Shown here in pieces: positions 2 through 33,450 of a stretch of DNA of 33,540 bases. The notes under the pieces are model-generated. The model was not told the DNA's origin and made no database searches. It was given only the letters and a program-made list of their open reading frames with translations. Source of the stretch: Gammaproteobacteria bacterium (GTDB taxonomy: Bacteria; Pseudomonadota; Gammaproteobacteria; GCA-001735895); assembly GCA_026989015.1 (NCBI GenBank), contig JALSKD010000010.1, forward strand, positions 1 to 33,540, given 5' to 3'. Positions within the stretch are counted from its first letter, which is position 1; the number at the start of each line of letters is the position of its first letter. Position numbers and translations under genes: made by a program.

Positions 2-583
2 GAGAAGGCCCACCCGGATGTCTTCAATCTGCTGCTGCAGGTGATGGACAATGGCACCCTGACCGACAACAACGGCCGCAAGGCCGACTTCCGCAATGTC
101 ATTCTGGTGATGACTACCAATGCTGGGGCCGAACTGATCAGCCGCAACAGCATCGGCTTCACCGAGCAGGACAACAGCCTCGACGCCGGCGACGCGATCA
201 AGAAGCTGTTCACCCCCGAGTTCCGCAACCGGCTCGATGCGGTGATCCACTTCAAACCGCTGGACGAACAGGTCATCCTCAATGTGGTGGACAAGTTCCT
301 GATCGAGCTGGAGGCGCAACTGGAGGCCAAGAAGGTTTCGCTCAACATCGATGACGATGCACGCCGTTACCTGGCAAGAAAGGGCTACGACCCGAAGATG
401 GGTGCCCGCCCGATGGCGCGGGTGATCCAGGACGAGATCAAGCAGGTTCTGGCCAACGAATTGCTGTTCGGCGCCCTGGCCAATGGCGGCGAAGTGCGGC
501 TCAAGGTCCGCGACGGCAAGCTGGTCTGCCACAGCCGGCCGCTGAAGGCGCCCAAGAAAAAGGCGGAACAGGCCAGCGCCTGA
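2..583 (+). CDS. clpA: ATP-dependent Clp protease ATP-binding subunit ClpA, 3' end only
   Basis: ClpA is the AAA+ unfoldase that feeds substrates into the ClpP protease in the cytoplasm. Only the last 193 codons are in the window; the frame is open from base 2, so the start lies outside. The visible part opens just after the second Walker B region (EKAHPDVFN), continues through the sensor-1 stretch (VILVMTTNAGA) and the FRNRLDAVIHF segment, and ends in the C-terminal small domain with a sensor-2 motif (GARPMARVIQ). The tail is lysine-rich. The neighbouring infA gene faces it with a 31-bp gap, an arrangement known from other gammaproteobacteria. ClpB is the main alternative, but the clpA-infA context and the short C-terminal tail favour ClpA. 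Confidence 0.93.
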   Translation, partial: EKAHPDVFNLLLQVMDNGTLTDNNGRKADFRNVILVMTTNAGAELISRNSIGFTEQDNSLDAGDAIKKLFTPEFRNRLDAVIHFKPLDEQVILNVVDKFLIELEAQLEAKKVSLNIDDDARRYLARKGYDPKMGARPMARVIQDEIKQVLANELLFGALANGGEVRLKVRDGKLVCHSRPLKAPKKKAEQASA

Positions 584-614
584 TCCGCCTCGGAGAGTGC
601 GTTCCGCGGCTCGG

Positions 615-833
615 TCAGCGTTCGCGGAAGGTGATGCGGCCCTTGGTCAGGTCATAGGGCGTCAGTTCCACGGTGACCTTGTCGCCCTTGAGGATGCGGA
701 TGTAGTGCTTGCGCATCTTGCCGGAGATATGGGCCGTCACCACATGACCGTTCTCCAGTTCGACGCGGAACATGGTATTGGGCAGGGTCTCGATGACCGT
801 GCCCTGCATTTCGATGTGATCGCCTTTCGACAT
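615..833 (-). CDS. infA: Translation initiation factor IF-1
   Basis: IF-1 binds the A site of the 30S subunit during translation initiation. The 72-residue product has the full length of the family and is a single S1-like OB fold. The diagnostic stretches are [39 protein letters not shown] and [18 protein letters not shown]. It is transcribed away from fabD and towards clpA. A promoter with a good -10 box lies in the divergent spacer. The identification is essentially certain because the family is so conserved. Confidence 0.98.
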
Positions 834-869
834 ATTCCGTGTTGATATCCGGTTCTTGAAAAACGCGCC

Positions 870-897
870 ATTATCCAGCTTTGACCGGGAATCACAA
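870..897 (-). promoter_or_regulatory. Candidate sigma-70 promoter of infA
   Basis: On the minus strand a TTGTGA -35-like box (892-897) and a GATAAT -10 box (870-875, 5 of 6 matches to consensus) are separated by 16 bp, 37 bp upstream of the infA start. The boxes fall in the divergent infA/fabD spacer. This is a consensus match by eye only. Confidence 0.45.
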
Positions 898-961
898 GCC
901 TATGACGCGGCTTTTTCTGTGCTAACATCGCGTTTTTTTACAGCACGGCACCCACCGAACG

Positions 962-1900
962 ATGACCCAACTCGCATTCGTATTTCCCGGCCAGGGCTCC
1001 CAGTCCGTCGGCATGATGAACGACTGGGGCGATTACCAGCCGCTGGTCAAGAAAACCCTCGAGCAGGCCTCCGACGCGCTGGGCGAAAACCTCGAACGCA
1101 TCGTCCGAGAAGGTCCGGCCGACCTGCTCAACCGTACCGAAATCACCCAGCCCGCGATGCTCGCCGCGGGGATCGCCGCCTGGCGTGTATGGCGCACCGC
1201 CAAACAACCGAATGCGGTGGCGCTGGCCGGGCACAGCCTCGGCGAGTACACCGCGCTGGTGGCCGCCGGTGCCATGGACTTCGGTGATGCCCTGTTGCTG
1301 GTTGCCGAACGGGGCCGTCTGATGCAGCAGGCGGTGGCCGAGGGCGAGGGCGCGATGGCCGCCATCATCGGACTCGACGACGACCGGGTGGCCGAAGCCT
1401 GTGCAGCGGTCGGTCAGGGCGTGGTTGCGCCGGTCAACTACAATTCACCGGGCCAGGTGGTCATCGCCGGCGACCGCAGTGCGGTGGAGCAGGCGATGGA
1501 GCAGGCCAAGGCGATGGGTGCCAAACGGGCCCTTCTGCTGCCCGTGTCCGTGCCTTCCCATTGCAGCCTGATGAAGCCGGCTGCCGATGCCCTTTACGAG
1601 CGTCTCAAGGCGATGGACATCTATATGCCCAAGGTGCCGGTTATCCACAACCAGAATGCAGCGCCTTCGACCGGCGCCGATGAGATTCGTGAGCGCCTGC
1701 GTGACCAGCTCTTCCAGCCGGTGCGCTGGGTCGAATGCGTGCAGGCGCTGAAGGAGCAGGGCGCCGATACCCTGGTCGAACTCGGCCCCGGCAAGGTACT
1801 GACAGGCCTGACGCGGCGCATCGACAAGACCCTGGCCGCCCTGCCGGTCCACAACGCGGCCAGCCTTGAGGCGGCCCGCCAACAGCTATCCGGAGAATAA
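962..1900 (+). CDS. fabD: Malonyl-CoA:ACP transacylase FabD
   Basis: FabD transfers malonyl from CoA to acyl carrier protein to supply type II fatty acid synthesis. The 312-residue length matches the family (about 309 in E. coli). It opens with the typical FVFPGQGSQ motif, carries the nucleophile elbow GHSLGEYTA with Ser92, and has the partner histidine in VPSHCS at His200. It is followed after 4 bp by fabG. Upstream one normally expects plsX and fabH, but here the gene faces infA directly across a 128-bp spacer. The ribosome binding site before this ATG is weak, but the family N-terminus fits the chosen start exactly. Confidence 0.97.
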   Translation: MTQLAFVFPGQGSQSVGMMNDWGDYQPLVKKTLEQASDALGENLERIVREGPADLLNRTEITQPAMLAAGIAAWRVWRTAKQPNAVALAGHSLGEYTALVAAGAMDFGDALLLVAERGRLMQQAVAEGEGAMAAIIGLDDDRVAEACAAVGQGVVAPVNYNSPGQVVIAGDRSAVEQAMEQAKAMGAKRALLLPVSVPSHCSLMKPAADALYERLKAMDIYMPKVPVIHNQNAAPSTGADEIRERLRDQLFQPVRWVECVQALKEQGADTLVELGPGKVLTGLTRRIDKTLAALPVHNAASLEAARQQLSGE

Positions 1901-1904
1901 CAGC

Positions 1905-2651
1905 ATGTCCGAACTCAAGGATCAGATTGCACTGGTCACCGGCGCCAGCCGTGGCATCGGCCAGGCCATTGCCCGCGCTCTCGGCAGCGCCGGCGCTACC
2001 GTCATCGGCACCGCCACCAGTGACGGCGGTGCTCAGGCCATCAGCGATTACCTGGCCGACGCCGGCATATCCGGGCGCGGCCTGCGCCTCGATGTGTCCG
2101 ACCCCGACTCGGTAGCCGCCTGCGTCAAGCAGGTCAACACGGACTTCGGCGCGCCCGATATCCTGGTCAACAATGCCGGCATCACCCGGGACGGCCTGCT
2201 GATGGCGATGAAGGAAGAACAGTGGGAGGCGGTGATCAACACCAACCTGACATCCATCTACCGCATGTCCAAGGCCGTCATCCGCGGCATGATGAAGAAG
2301 CGTAACGGCCGTATCATCAGCATTTCGTCCGTGGTCGGCGCTTCAGGCAATCCGGGGCAGACCAACTATGCCGCGGCCAAGGCCGGTCTGGTGGGTTTCA
2401 GCAAGGCGCTGGCCCGCGAGGTGGGTTCGCGCAACATCACCGTCAATGCAGTGGCGCCCGGTTTCATCGACACCGACATGACCCGCGAACTGGACGACAA
2501 GCAGAAGGACGCATTGCTGGCGCAGATACCGCTCGGGCGCCTCGGCGCTGCCGAAGAGATCGCCGCAACGGTGCTGTTTCTGGCCTCTCCCGGAGCCGCC
2601 TACATCACCGGCGAGACGATCCATGTCAATGGCGGCATGTACATGTCTTGA
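1905..2651 (+). CDS. fabG: 3-oxoacyl-ACP reductase FabG
   Basis: FabG reduces 3-oxoacyl-ACP with NADPH in the fatty acid elongation cycle. It is a 248-residue short-chain dehydrogenase with the cofactor motif TGASRGIGQA near residues 12-21, NNAG in the middle, and a complete catalytic triad at Ser142, Tyr155 and Lys159. An upstream in-frame ATG exists at 1866, inside fabD. The start at 1905 is preferred because MSELKDQIALVTG matches the family N-terminus and GGAG lies at 1892-1895. It sits 4 bp after fabD and before acpP. Confidence 0.97.
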   Translation: MSELKDQIALVTGASRGIGQAIARALGSAGATVIGTATSDGGAQAISDYLADAGISGRGLRLDVSDPDSVAACVKQVNTDFGAPDILVNNAGITRDGLLMAMKEEQWEAVINTNLTSIYRMSKAVIRGMMKKRNGRIISISSVVGASGNPGQTNYAAAKAGLVGFSKALAREVGSRNITVNAVAPGFIDTDMTRELDDKQKDALLAQIPLGRLGAAEEIAATVLFLASPGAAYITGETIHVNGGMYMS

Positions 2652-2689
2652 AGTAAAACTTTAACTTTTATTCATAACATTTTGTATTT

Positions 2690-2747
2690 TAAGCGCTTTA
2701 AAGGTCAAGCATTTTAGCTGGCATGGGGAAGGGCTTTTCAATACAAT
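2690..2747 (+). promoter_or_regulatory. AT-rich leader with candidate acpP promoter
   Basis: The 148-bp gap between fabG and acpP is markedly AT-rich in its first 65 bases. It holds an imperfect palindrome centred on AAGCGCTT (about 2690-2702). A CTGGCA box (2718-2723) and a TACAAT box (2742-2747) are 18 bp apart and resemble a sigma-70 promoter. A separate promoter would fit the high level of acyl carrier protein cells need. The assignment is by eye; the palindrome has no known regulator that I can name. Confidence 0.4.
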
Positions 2748-2799
2748 AGCGCGGCATCACAAGCCGTATCGATCTACCCACTTAGGAGAAACTCAAGCA

Positions 2800-3033
2800 A
2801 TGAGCTCTGTTGAAGAACGTGTAAAGAAGATTGTCGCCGAGCAGCTGGGCGCCAAGGAAGAGGATGTGACCAACAACGCCTCTTTCGTCGATGACCTCGG
2901 CGCAGACTCGCTGGATACCGTTGAACTGGTCATGGCTCTGGAAGAAGAGTTCGAAACCGAGATTCCCGACGAGGAAGCCGAAAAGATCACCACCGTTCAA
3001 CTGGCCATCGATTACATCAACGAACACCTGTAA
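2800..3033 (+). CDS. acpP: Acyl carrier protein
   Basis: This is the 77-residue, very acidic carrier protein that holds growing acyl chains on a phosphopantetheine arm. The attachment motif DSLDTVEL is intact, with the modified serine at Ser37. A strong AGGAG ribosome binding site (2784-2788) precedes the ATG by 11 bases. The gene has its own AT-rich leader upstream and a strong intrinsic terminator just downstream, so much of its mRNA is probably a short monocistronic transcript. It acts with FabD, FabG and FabF encoded beside it. Confidence 0.98.
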
Positions 3034-3054
3034 TCACCCCGGTTCGAATTCCTC

Positions 3055-3091
3055 AAATGCCGCTGGACTGTTCAGGTCGAGCGGCATTTTT
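3055..3091 (+). terminator. Intrinsic terminator after acpP
   Basis: A perfect 10-bp stem (AAATGCCGCT at 3055-3064, AGCGGCATTT at 3080-3089) encloses a 15-base loop and runs into a T-tract ending at 3091. It lies 21 bp after the acpP stop. It probably separates abundant acpP transcripts from the fabF-led genes, with partial read-through possible. Confidence 0.8.
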
Positions 3092-3196
3092 GGTACATGA
3101 AGCCGCGAAAATGGGCGGAAACCCGTTCACCCCGGTCGTCGGGTGATCTAGAATGCAGCCGTCCGGAAACTGAACTCATCGTTCGAGGTTATTCCC

Positions 3197-4435
3197 TTGC
3201 TTAATCGTCGCATCGTCATCACCGGCCTGGGCATGCTGTCTCCGGTCGGCAATACCGTCGAAGAATCCTGGAAGAACATCGTGGCCGGTGTCAGCGGCGT
3301 CGCGCCGATCACCGCCTTCGATGCTTCCGAATTCCCGGTACGCATCTCCGCGTCCGTGAAGAACTTCGATCCCACCGACTACATACCGAAGAAGGACATC
3401 AAGAAGATGGACCCCTTCATCCATTTCGGTATCGCCGCCGGCATTCAGGCACTGGAAGACTCCGGTCTCGAAGTGACCGAGGAAAACGCCGAGCGCATTG
3501 GCGTTGCCATCGGTTCAGGCATCGGTGGGCTGCCCGGCATCGAGCGCAACCGAGACCTGTTTGTCGCCGGCGGCGCACGCAAGATATCCCCGTTCTTCGT
3601 GCCCAGCTCGATCATCAACATGGTCTCCGGCAACCTGTCGATCATGAAAGGCCTCAAGGGACCCAACATTTCCATCGTCAGTGCCTGCACCACCGGCGCC
3701 CACAACATCGGCGACGCGGCACGAATGATCGCCTATGGCGATGCCGATGTGATGATCGCCGGCGGTGCCGAAATGGCCACCTGCCCGCTCGGAGTGGGCG
3801 GTTTCGCCGCCGCACGGGCACTCTCTACACGCAATGACGAACCGGAGAAGGCGAGCCGGCCCTGGGATGTCGACCGGGACGGTTTCGTGCTGGGCGACGG
3901 CGCCGGTGTAGTGGTGCTCGAGGACTACGAGCACGCCAGGGCACGCGGCGCAAACATCTACTGCGAACTGGCCGGCTACGGCATGAGCAGTGACGCCCAC
4001 CACATGACCCAGCCCTCACCCAGCGGCGAAGGCCCGGCCCGTTGCATGCTCAATGCATTGAAGGATGCAGGTATCGACAAGGAGCAGGTGGGCTACATCA
4101 ATGCCCACGGCACCTCCACCCCGGCCGGCGACAAGGCCGAGACCGAAGCGGTCAAGCGCGCCATGGGTGAACACGCCTACAAGCTGGTGGTCAGCTCCAC
4201 CAAGTCGATGACCGGGCATCTGCTCGGTGCCGCGGGTGGCATCGAAGCCATTTTCGCGATCCTTGCGCTGCGCGACCAGGTGATTCCGCCGACCATCAAC
4301 CTGGAGAACCAGGACCCCGAGTGCGATCTGGACTACTGTGCCAATGAGGCGCGAGACGCCAAACTGGATGTCACCCTGTCCAACTCCTTCGGCTTCGGCG
4401 GCACCAACGGAACCCTGCTGTTCAAGAAGATCTGA
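3197..4435 (+). CDS. fabF: 3-oxoacyl-ACP synthase II FabF (TTG start)
   Basis: FabF condenses malonyl-ACP with acyl-ACP to elongate fatty acids. The 412-residue length matches the family (413 in E. coli). The Cys-His-His active site is complete: Cys164 in [10 protein letters not shown], His304 in [11 protein letters not shown] and His341 in [11 protein letters not shown]. The N-terminus [17 protein letters not shown] fits the family only if translation starts at the TTG at 3197. There is no in-frame ATG between the upstream stop at 3149 and this codon, and GAGG at 3185-3188 is well placed. It follows the acpP terminator and precedes pabB by 22 bp. Confidence 0.96.
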
Positions 4436-4457
4436 TCCCGTGACCGACGGCTGAGCC

Positions 4458-5768
4458 ATGTTCCATCACCACAGGCTCGGCCGGCCGGTCGATCTGCTGG
4501 CGCTGCACCAGCGCCATCCCGAGCGCTATCCCTACCTGCTGGACTCGAACACCCAGGGAGCGGTCAATACCCGCTGGTCGCTGCTGTTCGCCTTTCCCGA
4601 GGAGATCCAGGTTCAGCGTGCAGGCGACAGCGATTGCCTGCAACGCTTGCCCGACCGACTGGAAACGGACACTTCCGTGGAGCTGCCCTTCATCGGCGGC
4701 TGGTTCCTGTTCCTTTCCTACGAATACGCCTCGGTGATCGAGCCCTCAGTGGCGTTCTTCACCGAAGCATCCGAATGGCCGCTGGCCGTGCTGGCGCGGA
4801 TACCGGCCGCAGTGATCATCGACCATCGGGACGCTTCCACGCATCTGGTGGCGCGGCAGGGACGGGCGGAACTCGTCGATGCCATGCTCGGGGACATCAA
4901 GGCAGGGCCCGTGGTCGAGCATCATCCCCTGCCTCCGATCGACATCGAGGAAGAGGACCCGGAGCGCTACCTCAGGCATCTGCAGCGGATCCACCGCTAC
5001 ATCGTCGATGGCGATATCTTCCAGGCCAATCTGTCCCGGCTTTGGAGCGGCCGTTATCGCGCGTCGGTTGACCCGGTATCCCTCTATGCCCGGCTGCGCG
5101 CTTCCAATCCCGCGCCGTTTGCCGCCCTGTTGCGCTTCGACGCGGACAACTGGCTGCTGAGCTCCTCGCCGGAACGCCTGATCGAGGTGGACGCCGGCCG
5201 GGTCGAAACCCGCCCCATCGCCGGCACCCACCCGCGGGGCGGCAGCGACGAGGAAGACGAGGCCTTGTCCCGCCGCCTGCTGGCGCATCCCAAGGAACGG
5301 GCCGAGCATGTCATGCTGATCGACCTGGAACGCAACGACCTGGGGCGTATCTGTGTGCCGGGCAGTATCCGTCTGGCCGAACGCATGAGCTTGGAAACCT
5401 ACCGCCATGTCCACCACATCGTGTCCAGCATCCGCGGTCGTTTGCGCGATGACTGCGCATCCCGGGAGGTTCTCCACGCGGTATTCCCCGGCGGCACCAT
5501 CACCGGCTGCCCAAAGGTACGCTGCATGGAGATCATCAGTGAGCTGGAGCAGGCGCCGCGCGGACCCTATACCGGGTCGTTGGGCTATATCAGTGACCAC
5601 GGACGCATGGATTTCAATATCCTGATCCGCAGCATCATGCTGCGCGGTCGCCGGGCCGACATCCGCGCAGGCGCCGGCATCGTTCATGATTCCGACAGCC
5701 AACGGGAGTTGCGCGAAACCCGGCACAAGGCACGAGGCATGCTCAATGCACTGGCATCTGATCACTGA
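4458..5768 (+). CDS. pabB: Aminodeoxychorismate synthase component I PabB
   Basis: PabB converts chorismate and ammonia into 4-amino-4-deoxychorismate for folate synthesis, with ammonia supplied by a PabA glutaminase not in this window. The 436-residue protein has the chorismate-binding fold: an N-terminal half with FLSYEYA, then FQANLSRLW, SSSPERLIEV, and the C-terminal signature FPGGTITGCPK with GPYTGSLGYI. At the position where E. coli PabB has the lysine of PIKGT this protein reads PIAGT (Ala255), as anthranilate synthase TrpE does. The 23-bp overlap with pabC argues for PabB rather than TrpE. Confidence 0.88.
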   Translation: MFHHHRLGRPVDLLALHQRHPERYPYLLDSNTQGAVNTRWSLLFAFPEEIQVQRAGDSDCLQRLPDRLETDTSVELPFIGGWFLFLSYEYASVIEPSVAFFTEASEWPLAVLARIPAAVIIDHRDASTHLVARQGRAELVDAMLGDIKAGPVVEHHPLPPIDIEEEDPERYLRHLQRIHRYIVDGDIFQANLSRLWSGRYRASVDPVSLYARLRASNPAPFAALLRFDADNWLLSSSPERLIEVDAGRVETRPIAGTHPRGGSDEEDEALSRRLLAHPKERAEHVMLIDLERNDLGRICVPGSIRLAERMSLETYRHVHHIVSSIRGRLRDDCASREVLHAVFPGGTITGCPKVRCMEIISELEQAPRGPYTGSLGYISDHGRMDFNILIRSIMLRGRRADIRAGAGIVHDSDSQRELRETRHKARGMLNALASDH

Positions 5769-6549
5769 CCGCGACCCGGGAGGCTGCGCCGATCTTGGAG
5801 ACCGGGGCCTGCACTACGGGGATGGCCTGTTCGAAACCATGTTGCAGAGCGGGCAGCATATCCTGTACTGGAACGGCCACTACCGGCGTCTGTCGCGCGA
5901 CGCGGCGCGGCTCGGCATCGCCTGCCCGCCAGAAGGCGCATTGCTCGATGCCCTTCAGCCCAGTCTGGACGAGGGCGGCCAGCGCATCATCAAGCTGATC
6001 CTGACCCGGGGCAGCGATGGCCGAGGGCCTTATTGGCCCCAGCGACAGACAGCCTGTATCTACCTTCTGCATTCGGAATATATTCCTTATAAACACGAGG
6101 TTACAGCTGTTTTCTCGAAACATTCACTGCCCGAGAATCCTCCTCTGGCCGGTATCAAGCACCTCAACCGGCTCGACTATGTCCTCGCCAGCCGGGAACT
6201 GGCCGGGCGCGAGGATTGCGAGCAACTGATCCTCCTCGACGGGGCAGGGCGGGTCATCGAAACCCTGGTGCACAACCTGTTTCTGGTGTGCGACGGCCGG
6301 GTCAGCACCCCCTCCCTGCAGCGTTGCGGGGTGGCCGGGGTGATGCGCGAACAGGTCATAAAAAGTCTGGAGCGGATGGACAAAGCGGTTAGAATTGACG
6401 ACTGCTCCCGCAAAGATCTGCTGACGGCAGACGAACTGTTCGTCTGCAACAGCGTGCAGGGCATACGCGCGCTGACGCGCATCGATGGCCGTGAATTCCC
6501 GGCCGGTCCGCTGACCCAGGAACTGCAACAATTGTTCAATGAACACTGA
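5746..6549 (+). CDS. pabC: Aminodeoxychorismate lyase PabC
   Basis: PabC removes pyruvate from aminodeoxychorismate to give p-aminobenzoate. It is a PLP enzyme of fold type IV, 267 residues, close to the usual length of about 270. Visible motifs are GLHYGDGLFETM near the N-terminus, the PLP lysine Lys138 in AGIKHLNRLDY, and GRVIETLVHNLF. The open frame extends 60 bases further upstream inside pabB. The ATG at 5746 gives the typical N-terminus and a 23-bp overlap, pointing to translational coupling with pabB. mltG follows after 24 bp, as in other gammaproteobacteria. Confidence 0.94.
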   Translation: MHWHLITDRDPGGCADLGDRGLHYGDGLFETMLQSGQHILYWNGHYRRLSRDAARLGIACPPEGALLDALQPSLDEGGQRIIKLILTRGSDGRGPYWPQRQTACIYLLHSEYIPYKHEVTAVFSKHSLPENPPLAGIKHLNRLDYVLASRELAGREDCEQLILLDGAGRVIETLVHNLFLVCDGRVSTPSLQRCGVAGVMREQVIKSLERMDKAVRIDDCSRKDLLTADELFVCNSVQGIRALTRIDGREFPAGPLTQELQQLFNEH

Positions 6550-20081: not shown

Positions 20082-21110
20082 TCAGGCTTGCCGGTTACAG
20101 GCCTCTGTCACCCAATCATGTACCGGCTGCAGCAGTGTTATACCTTCCCTGATGGTCTGGTGCGGGTCTCCCTCAGGGTCTATCGGGGTCCATATCGTCA
20201 AATGAGGGGAAACAGGTCGGACGACGGATAAGCCATCCGATACCCTAGTGACAGGTTGCCCCGGGTTTCGTGCTCTGAAGTTCCTTTTACTGTCCAGGCA
20301 GGACAGCGCTTCATTCAGAATGTTTGTCCACAGATCGCGATCCATTTGGCTGAGGGGGAATTCCTTTCCTCCCAGCAGTGCTTCACGAATCTCCAGACGG
20401 GCTGCTGCCTGCCAGGCATCTCGGGCAAAGCGTACGATGACTCGGTCCGGGTCAGCAACACGCTGTTTCAAGACGGTAATATCAGGGGCGTTCAAGATAA
20501 AATCCGAAATCAACCAGCGTCCCGTTTTTTCGCTTCCTTCCAGGTTGACCCCCAAATGCACTTCACCCGTATCGCGTTGAATCGACACATTCCACTGGAC
20601 GCCAAGCCTTCCGTCGCTGACCCCGAAATGGGGCCTGTTCAATTGACCAAAGGGCTTGCCTTTAAGACCAAGGACTTCATTGAAAGCGAACAGCAGATGT
20701 GTATAACGCAAGTCCTTCTTTCTTTCCGAAGGCCGTATGACCGAAGTGCTGTCATCAGGTGCGCGGGATCCGTCATTGTTTTCCTCAATCCAGGATATTT
20801 CTGTCTGGTTGTCCAGAATGGATCGAATGGCAACATAGGCATCCTCAGGGGTAAGATTGAAAAATTCACGCCGCTTTTGACGTAGTGGTGACAATTTCTG
20901 ATGGACCAGCCTTTCCAGGGCTCGGCAGTCATCCACTCGGAAATAGGCGGCAACTTCCCACAGGAAATCACCGGTTGAACTCTGGTTGATTTCTGCACAT
21001 CGTTGATAAGGATCGCGGGTGGTCATTCCAATCTTGCACACCGGAAGCACGATGTCCTTAACCTCGAGGATGTACACATAACCCGCGATTTTCCTGGAAG
21101 AATCATTCAT
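20082..21110 (-). CDS. GIY-YIG (T5orf172/MUG113-type) protein with unrecognised C-terminal domain
   Basis: The 342-residue product begins with a T5orf172-type GIY-YIG nuclease-like domain (residues about 10-100). GYVYILEV, then CKIGMTTRDPYQRCAEIN, ALERLVHQKL and RREFFNL, including the Glu where the family has its catalytic acid, fit this fold. The rest, about residues 125-342, has no domain I recognise; it is soluble, mixed alpha/beta, with no signal peptide. The G+C content is visibly below that of the neighbours, suggesting transfer. Start choice is uncertain: a GTG at 21152 lies one base after the stop of the decarboxylase gene and would add 14 residues; neither start has a clear ribosome binding site. 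It could be a restriction, repair or regulatory protein. Confidence 0.72.
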   Translation of the reverse strand: MNDSSRKIAGYVYILEVKDIVLPVCKIGMTTRDPYQRCAEINQSSTGDFLWEVAAYFRVDDCRALERLVHQKLSPLRQKRREFFNLTPEDAYVAIRSILDNQTEISWIEENNDGSRAPDDSTSVIRPSERKKDLRYTHLLFAFNEVLGLKGKPFGQLNRPHFGVSDGRLGVQWNVSIQRDTGEVHLGVNLEGSEKTGRWLISDFILNAPDITVLKQRVADPDRVIVRFARDAWQAAARLEIREALLGGKEFPLSQMDRDLWTNILNEALSCLDSKRNFRARNPGQPVTRVSDGLSVVRPVSPHLTIWTPIDPEGDPHQTIREGITLLQPVHDWVTEACNRQA

Positions 21111-21153
21111 AGGGCGGAATCGTCTAACTTTGTCTGGCCGGAAAAGTGCCACT

Positions 21154-31293: not shown

Positions 31294-33450
31294 TCAATAC
31301 AGGTACACTGCACCGCTGCCTGAGGCATCGTTGTTGAACTGATCGCCGCCGATGCCGGTGGTGTTGCTGTCCTCGAAATACGCCCCGACCGCCAGCGTGC
31401 TGCCGTCGGCGGACAGTGCTACGGCTTGGCCGAAGCGGTCATCCGTATCGGTATTGGAGGCCTTGACATAGGCCTGCTGTACCCAGGCGCCGGCGCTGCG
31501 GGTGAACACATAGACCGCGCCGGCAGAAGAGGCCAAGTTATCGATTTCATTGCCTCCGATTCCGGTGGCGTTGCTGTCCTCTAAAAACGCCCCGACCGCC
31601 AGCGTGTTGCCGTCGGCGGACAGCGCCACGGCGGTGCCGAAGCGCTCATTTGCATCGGTATTGGAGGCCTTGACATAGGCCTGCTGTACCCAGACACCAG
31701 CGCTGCGGGTGAACACATAGACCGCGCCGGATCCTCTGGCCGAGTTGTCGCTTTCATTGCCGCCGATGCCGGTGGCGTTGCTGGCTTCGCCATGCGCCCC
31801 GACCGCCAGCGTGGTGCCGTCGGCGGACAGCGCCACGGCCCAGCCGAAGTGGTCAAATGCATCACCGGTATTGGAGGCCTTGACATAGGCCTGCTGGGAC
31901 CAGGTGCCGCCGGCGCTGCGGGTGAACACATAGACCGCGCCGGATCCACCGGCCGAGTTGTCGCTTTCATTGCCATCGATGCCGGTGGCGTTGCTGCTCT
32001 CGTCAGCCGCCCCGACCGCCAGCGTGGTGCCGTCGGCGGACAGCGCCAGGGCGTAGCCGAAGCGGTCATCCGCATCGGTATTGGAGGCCTTGACATAGGC
32101 CTGCTGGGACCAGGCACCGCCGGCGCTGCGGGTGAACACATAGACCGCGCCGGCATTGCCGGCCGAGTTGTCGCCTTCATAGCCGCCGATGCCGGTGGCG
32201 TTGCTGCTCTCGTCAGCCGCCCCGACCGCCAGCGTGGTGCCGTCGGCGGACAGCGCCAGGGCGGTGCCGAACTGGTCGCCCGCATCGGTATTGGAGGCCT
32301 TGACATAGGCCTGCTGGGACCAGGCGCCGGCGCTGCGGGTGAACACATAGACCGCGCCGGAACCAGAGGCCGAGTTGTCGCTTTCATTGCCGCCGATGCC
32401 GGTGGCGTTGCTGTCCTCGTAATGCGCCCCGACCGCCAGCGTGCTGCCGTCGGCGGACAGTGTCACGGCGGTGCCGAAGCGGTCATGTGCATCGGTATTG
32501 GAGGCCTTGACATAGGCCTGCTGTACCCAGGCGCCGGCGCTGCGGGTGAACACATAGACCGCGCCGGCAAAGGCGAGCGAGTTGTCGCTTTCATCGCCAT
32601 CGATGCCGGTGGCGTTGCTGGCCTCGAAAATAGCCCCGACCGCCAGCGTGCTGCCGTCGGCGGACAGTGCCACGGCCCAGCCGAACCAGTCACTCGCACC
32701 GGTATTGGAGGCCTTGAAGTAGCCCACCGCACCGGTCAGGGTGCCGCTGACGCTGAGTTCGCTGCTGTCGGTGCAGCCGGTGGGGTTGCAGCTTTGCAGC
32801 AGGTAGCGGGCGTTGACGCGAGCGTACAGCGGTACGCTGTGGTCGTAGTGCTCATCGCCGGCAGGGATATCGCCCCCCACCTGGCTGAAACCGGACACCC
32901 CGTCGGGGTTCTCCAGCAGGCGGTAGAAGGTGGCGTCCGCCACATCGGACCAGGTGAAGCGGAAGGCCTTGAGGGCAAGCCCGAGGGCGGGCGTGGCGGC
33001 CACATCGGGGGCTTCAGCGACATCGGTCACCATTACGGTCACGGCCCGTGTGGTTGTTGTGTTGCCGTCACTGGCGCTGATTTCCACGGTGTAGCCGTTA
33101 TCGCCGTCGCTGTCGGTCGGGGCTTCGAAATTGGGCGCGGTGTTGAAGCTCAATACGCCGCTGCTGGCGTCCAGACTGAAGGCGGCCTGATCCGCGCCTC
33201 CGCTCAGGCTGAAGGTGACCGTGTCGCCATCGGCATCGGTGGCGGTGGCGGTATAGCCGGTGGCGGTGGTGTTTTCCGGCACTGAAATGCTGTCGCCACT
33301 GGTAAACACCGGCCCGGCGTTCGATTGTGACCCCCCGCCGCCGCATGCGGTGAGGAGCAACAGGCTGCCAAGCAGTACCGCGGCGCGCGCGGTGAATGGG
33401 GTGTGTGTCGAGCCGATGCGGCTCTTGCCGTTTTTATTGAATGTGTTCAT
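31294..33450 (-). CDS. Lipoprotein with cadherin-like domain and seven FG-GAP-like repeats
   Basis: The 718-residue protein has a basic N-terminus, a hydrophobic stretch and a lipobox LTAC with the acylated Cys36 followed by GGGG, so it is an envelope lipoprotein. Residues about 47-148 resemble a cadherin-like domain with acidic calcium-type loops (TDADGDTVTF, DSDGDNGYTV). Residues about 150-240 look like a fibronectin-type region. Then come seven FG-GAP-like repeats of 69-70 residues, each with FG.AVALSADG, LAVGA, SNATGIGG and GAVYVFTRSAG; the last is shortened. Seven blades would close one beta-propeller as in integrin alpha chains. Acidic composition suggests calcium binding. The ligand is unknown; adhesion or polymer binding is inference. 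AGGAAG precedes the ATG. It stands alone. Confidence 0.85.
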   Translation of the reverse strand: MNTFNKNGKSRIGSTHTPFTARAAVLLGSLLLLTACGGGGSQSNAGPVFTSGDSISVPENTTATGYTATATDADGDTVTFSLSGGADQAAFSLDASSGVLSFNTAPNFEAPTDSDGDNGYTVEISASDGNTTTTRAVTVMVTDVAEAPDVAATPALGLALKAFRFTWSDVADATFYRLLENPDGVSGFSQVGGDIPAGDEHYDHSVPLYARVNARYLLQSCNPTGCTDSSELSVSGTLTGAVGYFKASNTGASDWFGWAVALSADGSTLAVGAIFEASNATGIDGDESDNSLAFAGAVYVFTRSAGAWVQQAYVKASNTDAHDRFGTAVTLSADGSTLAVGAHYEDSNATGIGGNESDNSASGSGAVYVFTRSAGAWSQQAYVKASNTDAGDQFGTALALSADGTTLAVGAADESSNATGIGGYEGDNSAGNAGAVYVFTRSAGGAWSQQAYVKASNTDADDRFGYALALSADGTTLAVGAADESSNATGIDGNESDNSAGGSGAVYVFTRSAGGTWSQQAYVKASNTGDAFDHFGWAVALSADGTTLAVGAHGEASNATGIGGNESDNSARGSGAVYVFTRSAGVWVQQAYVKASNTDANERFGTAVALSADGNTLAVGAFLEDSNATGIGGNEIDNLASSAGAVYVFTRSAGAWVQQAYVKASNTDTDDRFGQAVALSADGSTLAVGAYFEDSNTTGIGGDQFNNDASGSGAVYLY
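31297..32724 (-). repeat. Seven in-frame tandem DNA repeats in the lipoprotein gene
   Basis: The sequence TTGGAGGCCTTGA (plus strand) recurs at 31454, 31661, 31871, 32081, 32291, 32498 and 32705. The steps are 207, 210, 210, 210, 207 and 207 bp, all multiples of three, so frame is kept. The copies are very alike at DNA level, more than needed to keep the protein fold, which points to recent duplication or gene conversion. Confidence 0.9.

Follow-up and report, generated by a model that had tools for sequence, protein, structure and literature searches.

The gene described here encodes a propeller lipoprotein in which blades 1–6 are of recent common origin and were copied from one another within the gene. 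It lies in the window, the whole 33,540-nucleotide stretch of gammaproteobacterial DNA that was analyzed, and codon tests place a few named codons of its blades under strong diversifying selection. Its fold is predicted to be a closed, seven-bladed integrin-alpha-type propeller. We consider it probable that the product is a lipid-anchored seven-bladed propeller with recently recopied blades and diversified loop codons, acting as an adhesin or recognition protein. This is the most likely role, and the putative ligand would be a protein or a glycan.

Gene architecture and predicted fold

The complete gene occupies a single open reading frame on the minus strand (31294..33450) and encodes an FG-GAP_2 propeller lipoprotein of 718 aa, with the stop codon directly after GAVYLY. 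Membership of the FG-GAP_2 family (PF14312) is supported by seven matching stretches with an E-value of 6.1e-50 and a score of 167.6 bits against the Pfam gathering cut-off of 23; an NCBIfam search of the protein assigned no family name. The contig edge lies 90 bases upstream of the start codon, leaving the upstream side without gene context, and the downstream gene, named by eye, is presumably formyltetrahydrofolate-deformylase-like. Promoter and terminator scans around the gene returned matches at chance level. Elsewhere in the window, a 356-aa protein (20082..21152, minus strand) carries what we take, by eye, to be an N-terminal T5orf172/GIY-YIG-type domain. A phage origin of the propeller gene was rejected, as a viral contig scan yielded four pattern matches and zero relatives.

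The protein begins with a signal peptide and lipobox (33343..33450, minus strand). Sequence reading and a simple pattern located the lipobox LLLLTAC, with LTAC at residues 33–36, which identifies a bacterial lipoprotein that is probably lipidated at Cys36; the simple pattern also recovered a similar signal in 53 of the 78 relatives with 5'-complete frames. A cadherin-like domain follows at residues 54–140 (33031..33291, minus strand), where protocadherin-15 chains matched with an E-value of 6e-6 and Pfam Cadherin with 1e-4, weaker than its cut-off. Both elements had been proposed in a preliminary description of this DNA and are recovered here. Between this domain and the propeller lies a beta-sandwich linker at about residues 146–235 (32746..33015, minus strand; predicted strands 155–228), FnIII-like by eye and common to the paralogues, whose match to the window protein starts at residue 146. 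N-terminal parts vary across relatives, comprising cadherin-like, PKD, InlB-B-like, collagen/DUF7151, and Ig-like domains in the nine proteins examined.

The AlphaFold2 model, built from 65 sequences, reached a mean pLDDT of 87.6 and a pTM of 0.79 for the whole protein, with pLDDT mostly 91–99 over the propeller (residues 241–718) and below 50 for residues 1–43. The complete seven-blade propeller anticipated in the preliminary description is reproduced by this structure prediction, in which seven blades close into a ring. Each blade has strands A–D, except that blade 7 stops after strand C. In the secondary structure of the model, a short strand lies ahead of blade 1 (residues 243–245; 32716..32724, minus strand); judging from blade order and integrin topology, it would supply the missing strand of blade 7 in a velcro closure. 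In integrins, the strand before blade 1 likewise locks the ring (PMC3192720). Integrin alpha chains ranked at the top of a Foldseek search with the model, and VIA-align gave a Z score of 34.7 for integrin alpha4 (367 residues, 3.0 Å). However, the WD40 protein Ciao1 scored 32.2; fold likeness alone is therefore not integrin-specific, and kinship rests on the FG-GAP sequence.

Recopying of blades and the number seven

Tandem Repeats Finder (TRF) delineated an array at 31345–32717 with a period of 207. On the minus strand, the blades occupy 32515..32721 (blade 1, residues 244–312), 32308..32514 (blade 2, 313–381), 32098..32307 (blade 3, 382–451), 31888..32097 (blade 4, 452–521), 31678..31887 (blade 5, 522–591), 31471..31677 (blade 6, 592–660), and 31297..31470 (blade 7, 661–718). 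The earlier count of seven repeats of 207–210 bp thus applies to six units, each of 69–70 aa, while the seventh, three-stranded and the most divergent copy (pS 0.26–0.34 to the other blades), spans 174 bp and 58 aa. Exact repeats inside the array reach at most 79 bp, followed by one of 77 bp, making assembly collapse less likely, although the genome is a draft in 198 contigs.

The copies had been regarded as recently related, and synonymous divergence agrees: pS between blades is 0.172 in the window protein versus 0.551 and 0.629 in L002 and L003, paralogues from the own genome in which pN is 0.236 and 0.243, compared with 0.146 in the window. Window blades differ from the paralogue blades by a pS of 0.47–0.52. 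The window protein ranks fourth by mean between-blade identity among the measured frames, and across 86 compared proteins the best amino-acid match of each of its seven blades is another blade of the same protein. In the DNA tree, blades 1–6 form a clade with a support of 0.82 (15 proteins) or 0.83 (own genome only), with blade 7 outside. Of the other 14 proteins, nine likewise have monophyletic blade sets, as would be expected if each had been recopied separately, and five do not.

Position-wise orthology between blades of the window protein and those of relatives was sought and rejected, as the difference between same-position and different-position identity ranged from −0.01 to 0.03 across the 25 listed pairs. 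Since fast columns lose the position signal in any case, its absence alone argues weakly for recopying. Nor is the process constant across the family: same-position identity is retained at 0.945 versus 0.489 in the orthologue pair from Acidovorax radicis and A. facilis (L076/L077), and at 0.861 versus 0.451 in a Nannocystis pair (L068/L079). The blades of both pairs match position by position; some lineages have stopped recopying.

The own genome (2.9 Mb) carries further relatives on four contigs (C16, C178, C46, and C99). The copy on C99 breaks off at the contig end before any blade is reached and shares 94.8% identity with the copy at the start of C178 across 498 bases; with these two near-identical copies, one of them truncated, the number of such FG-GAP_2 genes in the genome is probably at least five. 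The window protein was matched in 13 of the 41 genomes of its GTDB family; of the two genomes of the genus searched, only its own gave a match, and the second held no copy. A contig scan over other genomes found 240 relatives, and 79 loci were kept, many of them from Gammaproteobacteria, Burkholderiales, and Myxococcota according to record titles. Relatives in other genomes are frequently arranged in tandem, and ten loci (L011, L018, L019, L027, L035, L047, L054, L071, L076, and L077) carry two or three FG-GAP_2 genes each; together with the further copies in the own genome, this points to a repertoire.

Given DNA copies similar enough for recombination, the preliminary description had proposed that blades could be gained and lost, so that blade number would vary between strains and with it a surface protein. 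Such variation is not supported by the count across the family: 97 of the 98 complete propellers, from many taxa and including the sets with the most alike blades, have seven blades. The count derives from 104 frames after the duplicate L005 was dropped, of which 86 gave seven clean matches; inspection of the other 18 identified eleven seven-bladed propellers (one frameshifted, on L012, and one with unknown residues, L033), six fragments, and one six-bladed protein. As relatives were ranked by their match to a seven-blade query, shorter propellers were disfavored and possibly hidden from this count, whereas longer ones were not. Five additional loci, drawn from three genomes in the GTDB family of the window, gave 14 blades for L109 and, by eye, seven for each of L110–L113, with one of these four weak. 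The six-bladed relative (L063, frame 1–1530) speaks for variation between strains; against the seven blades of nearly all complete propellers, the same-family seven-bladed loci, and L109 read as 7+7, we regard that explanation as very improbable. L063 itself lies on a short MAG contig, and its missing blade may reflect either a real loss or an assembly collapse. The L109 protein (G035:C44:48000-56000, frame 16–6084) has 2023 aa, and its 14 blades would correspond to two rings.

Diversifying codons in or beside the blade loops

The description of the repeats as near-identical holds for the framework codons, which are almost constant, but overstates the likeness of whole blades, whose mean identity is 84% for DNA (0.844) and 77% for protein. 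Among blades 1–6, 190 of the 403 nucleotide differences (47%) fall at seven of the 69 codon columns. The suggested comparison of synonymous with non-synonymous differences gave an unforeseen result, a within-window dN/dS of 0.84 versus 0.28 and 0.21 in two paralogues, concentrated at 6–7 codons of each blade. In blade 1 (minus strand), these codons lie in the D-A loop and where strand A begins (residues 253, 255, and 258; 32677..32694), at the start of the B-C loop (residues 274 and 275; 32626..32631), and at its end (residues 293 and 294; 32569..32574), and the same columns recur in blades 2–7. According to the model, strand A of blade 1 spans columns 13–19, B 25–30, and C 53–61, with D beginning at 64. 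Columns 10 and 12 flank the conserved D11 in the D-A loop, column 15 lies near the start of strand A, columns 31–32 open the B-C loop ahead of the conserved E33, and columns 50–51 close it. The D-A and B-C loops of a propeller lie on the same face, and from the strand order the diversifying codons would share that one face.

Selection was evaluated at 12 hypervariable columns, classed by the identity between blades after the tested protein had been set aside. Under a shared synonymous rate, the window reached an omega of 3.39 (LRT 22.3), and it was one of five proteins, among the seven with the most alike blades, in which omega significantly exceeded 1. When the local rate was left free in fits to 14 proteins, four (L017, L082, L024, and L056) remained above an LRT of 3.84; the first copy on L018 (3.54) and L007 (2.78) fell short of this value; and six (L012, L081, L011, the second copy on L018, L010, and L002) showed no excess, with an LRT below 1 in the first three. 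L003 pointed to an omega below 1. For the window alone, omega was 1.9 and rho 2.0 (LRT 2.5), and omega = 1 was not rejected. Pooling ten proteins with leave-one-out columns placed the best grid point at an omega of 2.2 and a rho of 1.2, rejecting omega = 1 (2ΔlnL 22.3) and not rho = 1 (2.66).

A column scan over the same ten proteins with the synonymous rate fixed located strong excess at columns 10, 12, 15, 31, 32, 50, and 51 (LRT 18–82), weak excess at column 9 (LRT 5.8), and purifying selection at the majority of the remaining loop columns in these blades. Once the synonymous rate was freed, columns 10, 15, 31, and 51 were still significant; columns 12, 32, and 50 no longer were. The cleanest selection test made was an out-of-sample fit. 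When columns were picked from nine other proteins with the window omitted, six of the seven passed, all except 50, so that of the pair at the B-C loop end column 51 alone was selected. In the window, these six columns gave a beta of 8.68 and an alpha of 0.62 (LRT 12.5, or 13.1 on a star tree). Like the other selection fits, this test assumes a tree without exchange between blades, for which the star tree is a partial control only.

The variable codons might instead be older than the framework, if short-tract gene conversion homogenized the framework and spared blade-specific loop codons. The higher local rate preferred by the window at the 12 columns, which was not significant, and the synonymous estimates likewise raised at columns 12, 32, and 50 fit such a history. 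However, the pooled data are compatible with an unchanged local rate, the six out-of-sample columns need no raised synonymous rate in the window (LRT 0.34), and conversion tracts would need to be short enough to lie between codons a few bases apart, so we consider this explanation unlikely. Still less likely is that loop positions free of constraint drifted neutrally once the blades had been recopied, with no role in recognition: L012, L081, and L011 singly agree with it, yet rates at the named codons exceed the synonymous rate, and most other loop columns are conserved by selection. Targeted mutagenesis by a diversity-generating retroelement, as the source of the NNT/NNC codon patterns, would suit the third base retained by some variable codons (column 31); with zero matches to the reverse transcriptase family PF00078 in the own draft genome, it was rejected as extremely improbable.

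We return to recopying followed by diversification. An extracytoplasmic, lipid-anchored protein would present a closed integrin-alpha-type (FG-GAP_2) propeller whose blades 1–6 were recently recopied inside the gene, with the old frame of N-terminal closing strand, blade-7 end, and total of seven retained. On a scaffold that stayed fixed, 6–7 codons of each blade, located within or next to the D-A and B-C loops, would afterwards have changed faster than neutral. Since loop codons diverge while the scaffold stays fixed, the face by which integrins and many propellers bind partners may have been made irregular. The retention of seven blades, together with positive selection at the same few positions of each blade, suggests a surface shaped for recognition of some partner, and the protein is probably surface-exposed and ligand-binding. 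The earlier proposal of a binding platform is plausible, and its adhesin role remains a best guess. The named residues offer mutation targets in a search for the ligand. More tentatively, FG-GAP_2 lipoproteins could form a self-renewing recognition repertoire, in which blades are recopied, ring closure holds their number at seven, and the same loop codons are driven apart.

Comparison with known systems

Blade recopying is already known from highly repetitive beta-propellers, 2% of which are FG-GAP/alpha-integrin members (PMC9218822). As in the window, their blades are closer within one propeller, reflecting recent amplification. The identity above 60% by which that set is defined, taken there as a median, is exceeded by the window mean of 77%, and the window blades are closest to each other in seven of seven cases by amino acid, whereas the DNA tree groups blades 1–6 without blade 7. 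In that set, however, a spread of blade numbers is both expected and reported, as nothing counts the copies, whereas 97 of 98 FG-GAP_2 propellers have seven. The excerpts of PMC9218822 contain no codon-level selection test for FG-GAP, and the literature searched, which excludes most subscription journals, held no study of blade-to-blade selection in FG-GAP propellers. The combination of fixed number and codon diversification in FG-GAP_2 looks new, the recopying itself being known.

Bacterial integrin-type propellers (Chouhan 2011, PMC3192720) share with the window protein seven repeats, the FG and GA(P) positions, and a closing strand ahead of blade 1, and the prediction closes the seven repeats with integrin topology. 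However, they carry the DxDxDG calcium motif in every repeat, whereas loop AB is LSADGNT-like here and the motif was found in 3 of 602 blades. Coral tachylectin-2 is also a beta-propeller recognition protein under positive selection, but it is a eukaryotic lectin with selection between alleles rather than between blades (PMC2880987). Bap1 and RbmC, two proteins of the biofilm matrix, contain FG-GAP repeats and provide a loose analogy only (PMC3161981).

How a closed ring survives recopying though nothing counts its copies, and what comes after recopying, is a question of propeller biology. The FG-GAP_2 family supplies many cases with seven blades kept and the same D-A and B-C loop codons selected, making both parts testable in bacteria. 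The closest parallel in selection is found in the WD40 repeats of Podospora HET-D and HET-E, which are similarly alike and have positively selected D-A and B-C codons (PMC1805685; PMC2873952), those of HET-E forming one pair in the D-A loop and another in the B-C turn, with a conserved residue inside each pair (PMC1805685); positive selection was found at the corresponding positions in the window. Those intracellular STAND proteins swap repeats between loci and have an unstable repeat number (PMC1805685; PMC2873952), in contrast to the extracytoplasmic FG-GAP_2 protein with its seven blades kept, and the divergence between window and paralogue blades gave no sign of exchange between loci. If such a self-renewing FG-GAP_2 repertoire exists, it would give bacteria an extracytoplasmic equivalent of the fungal HET-E system, built on a fixed ring.
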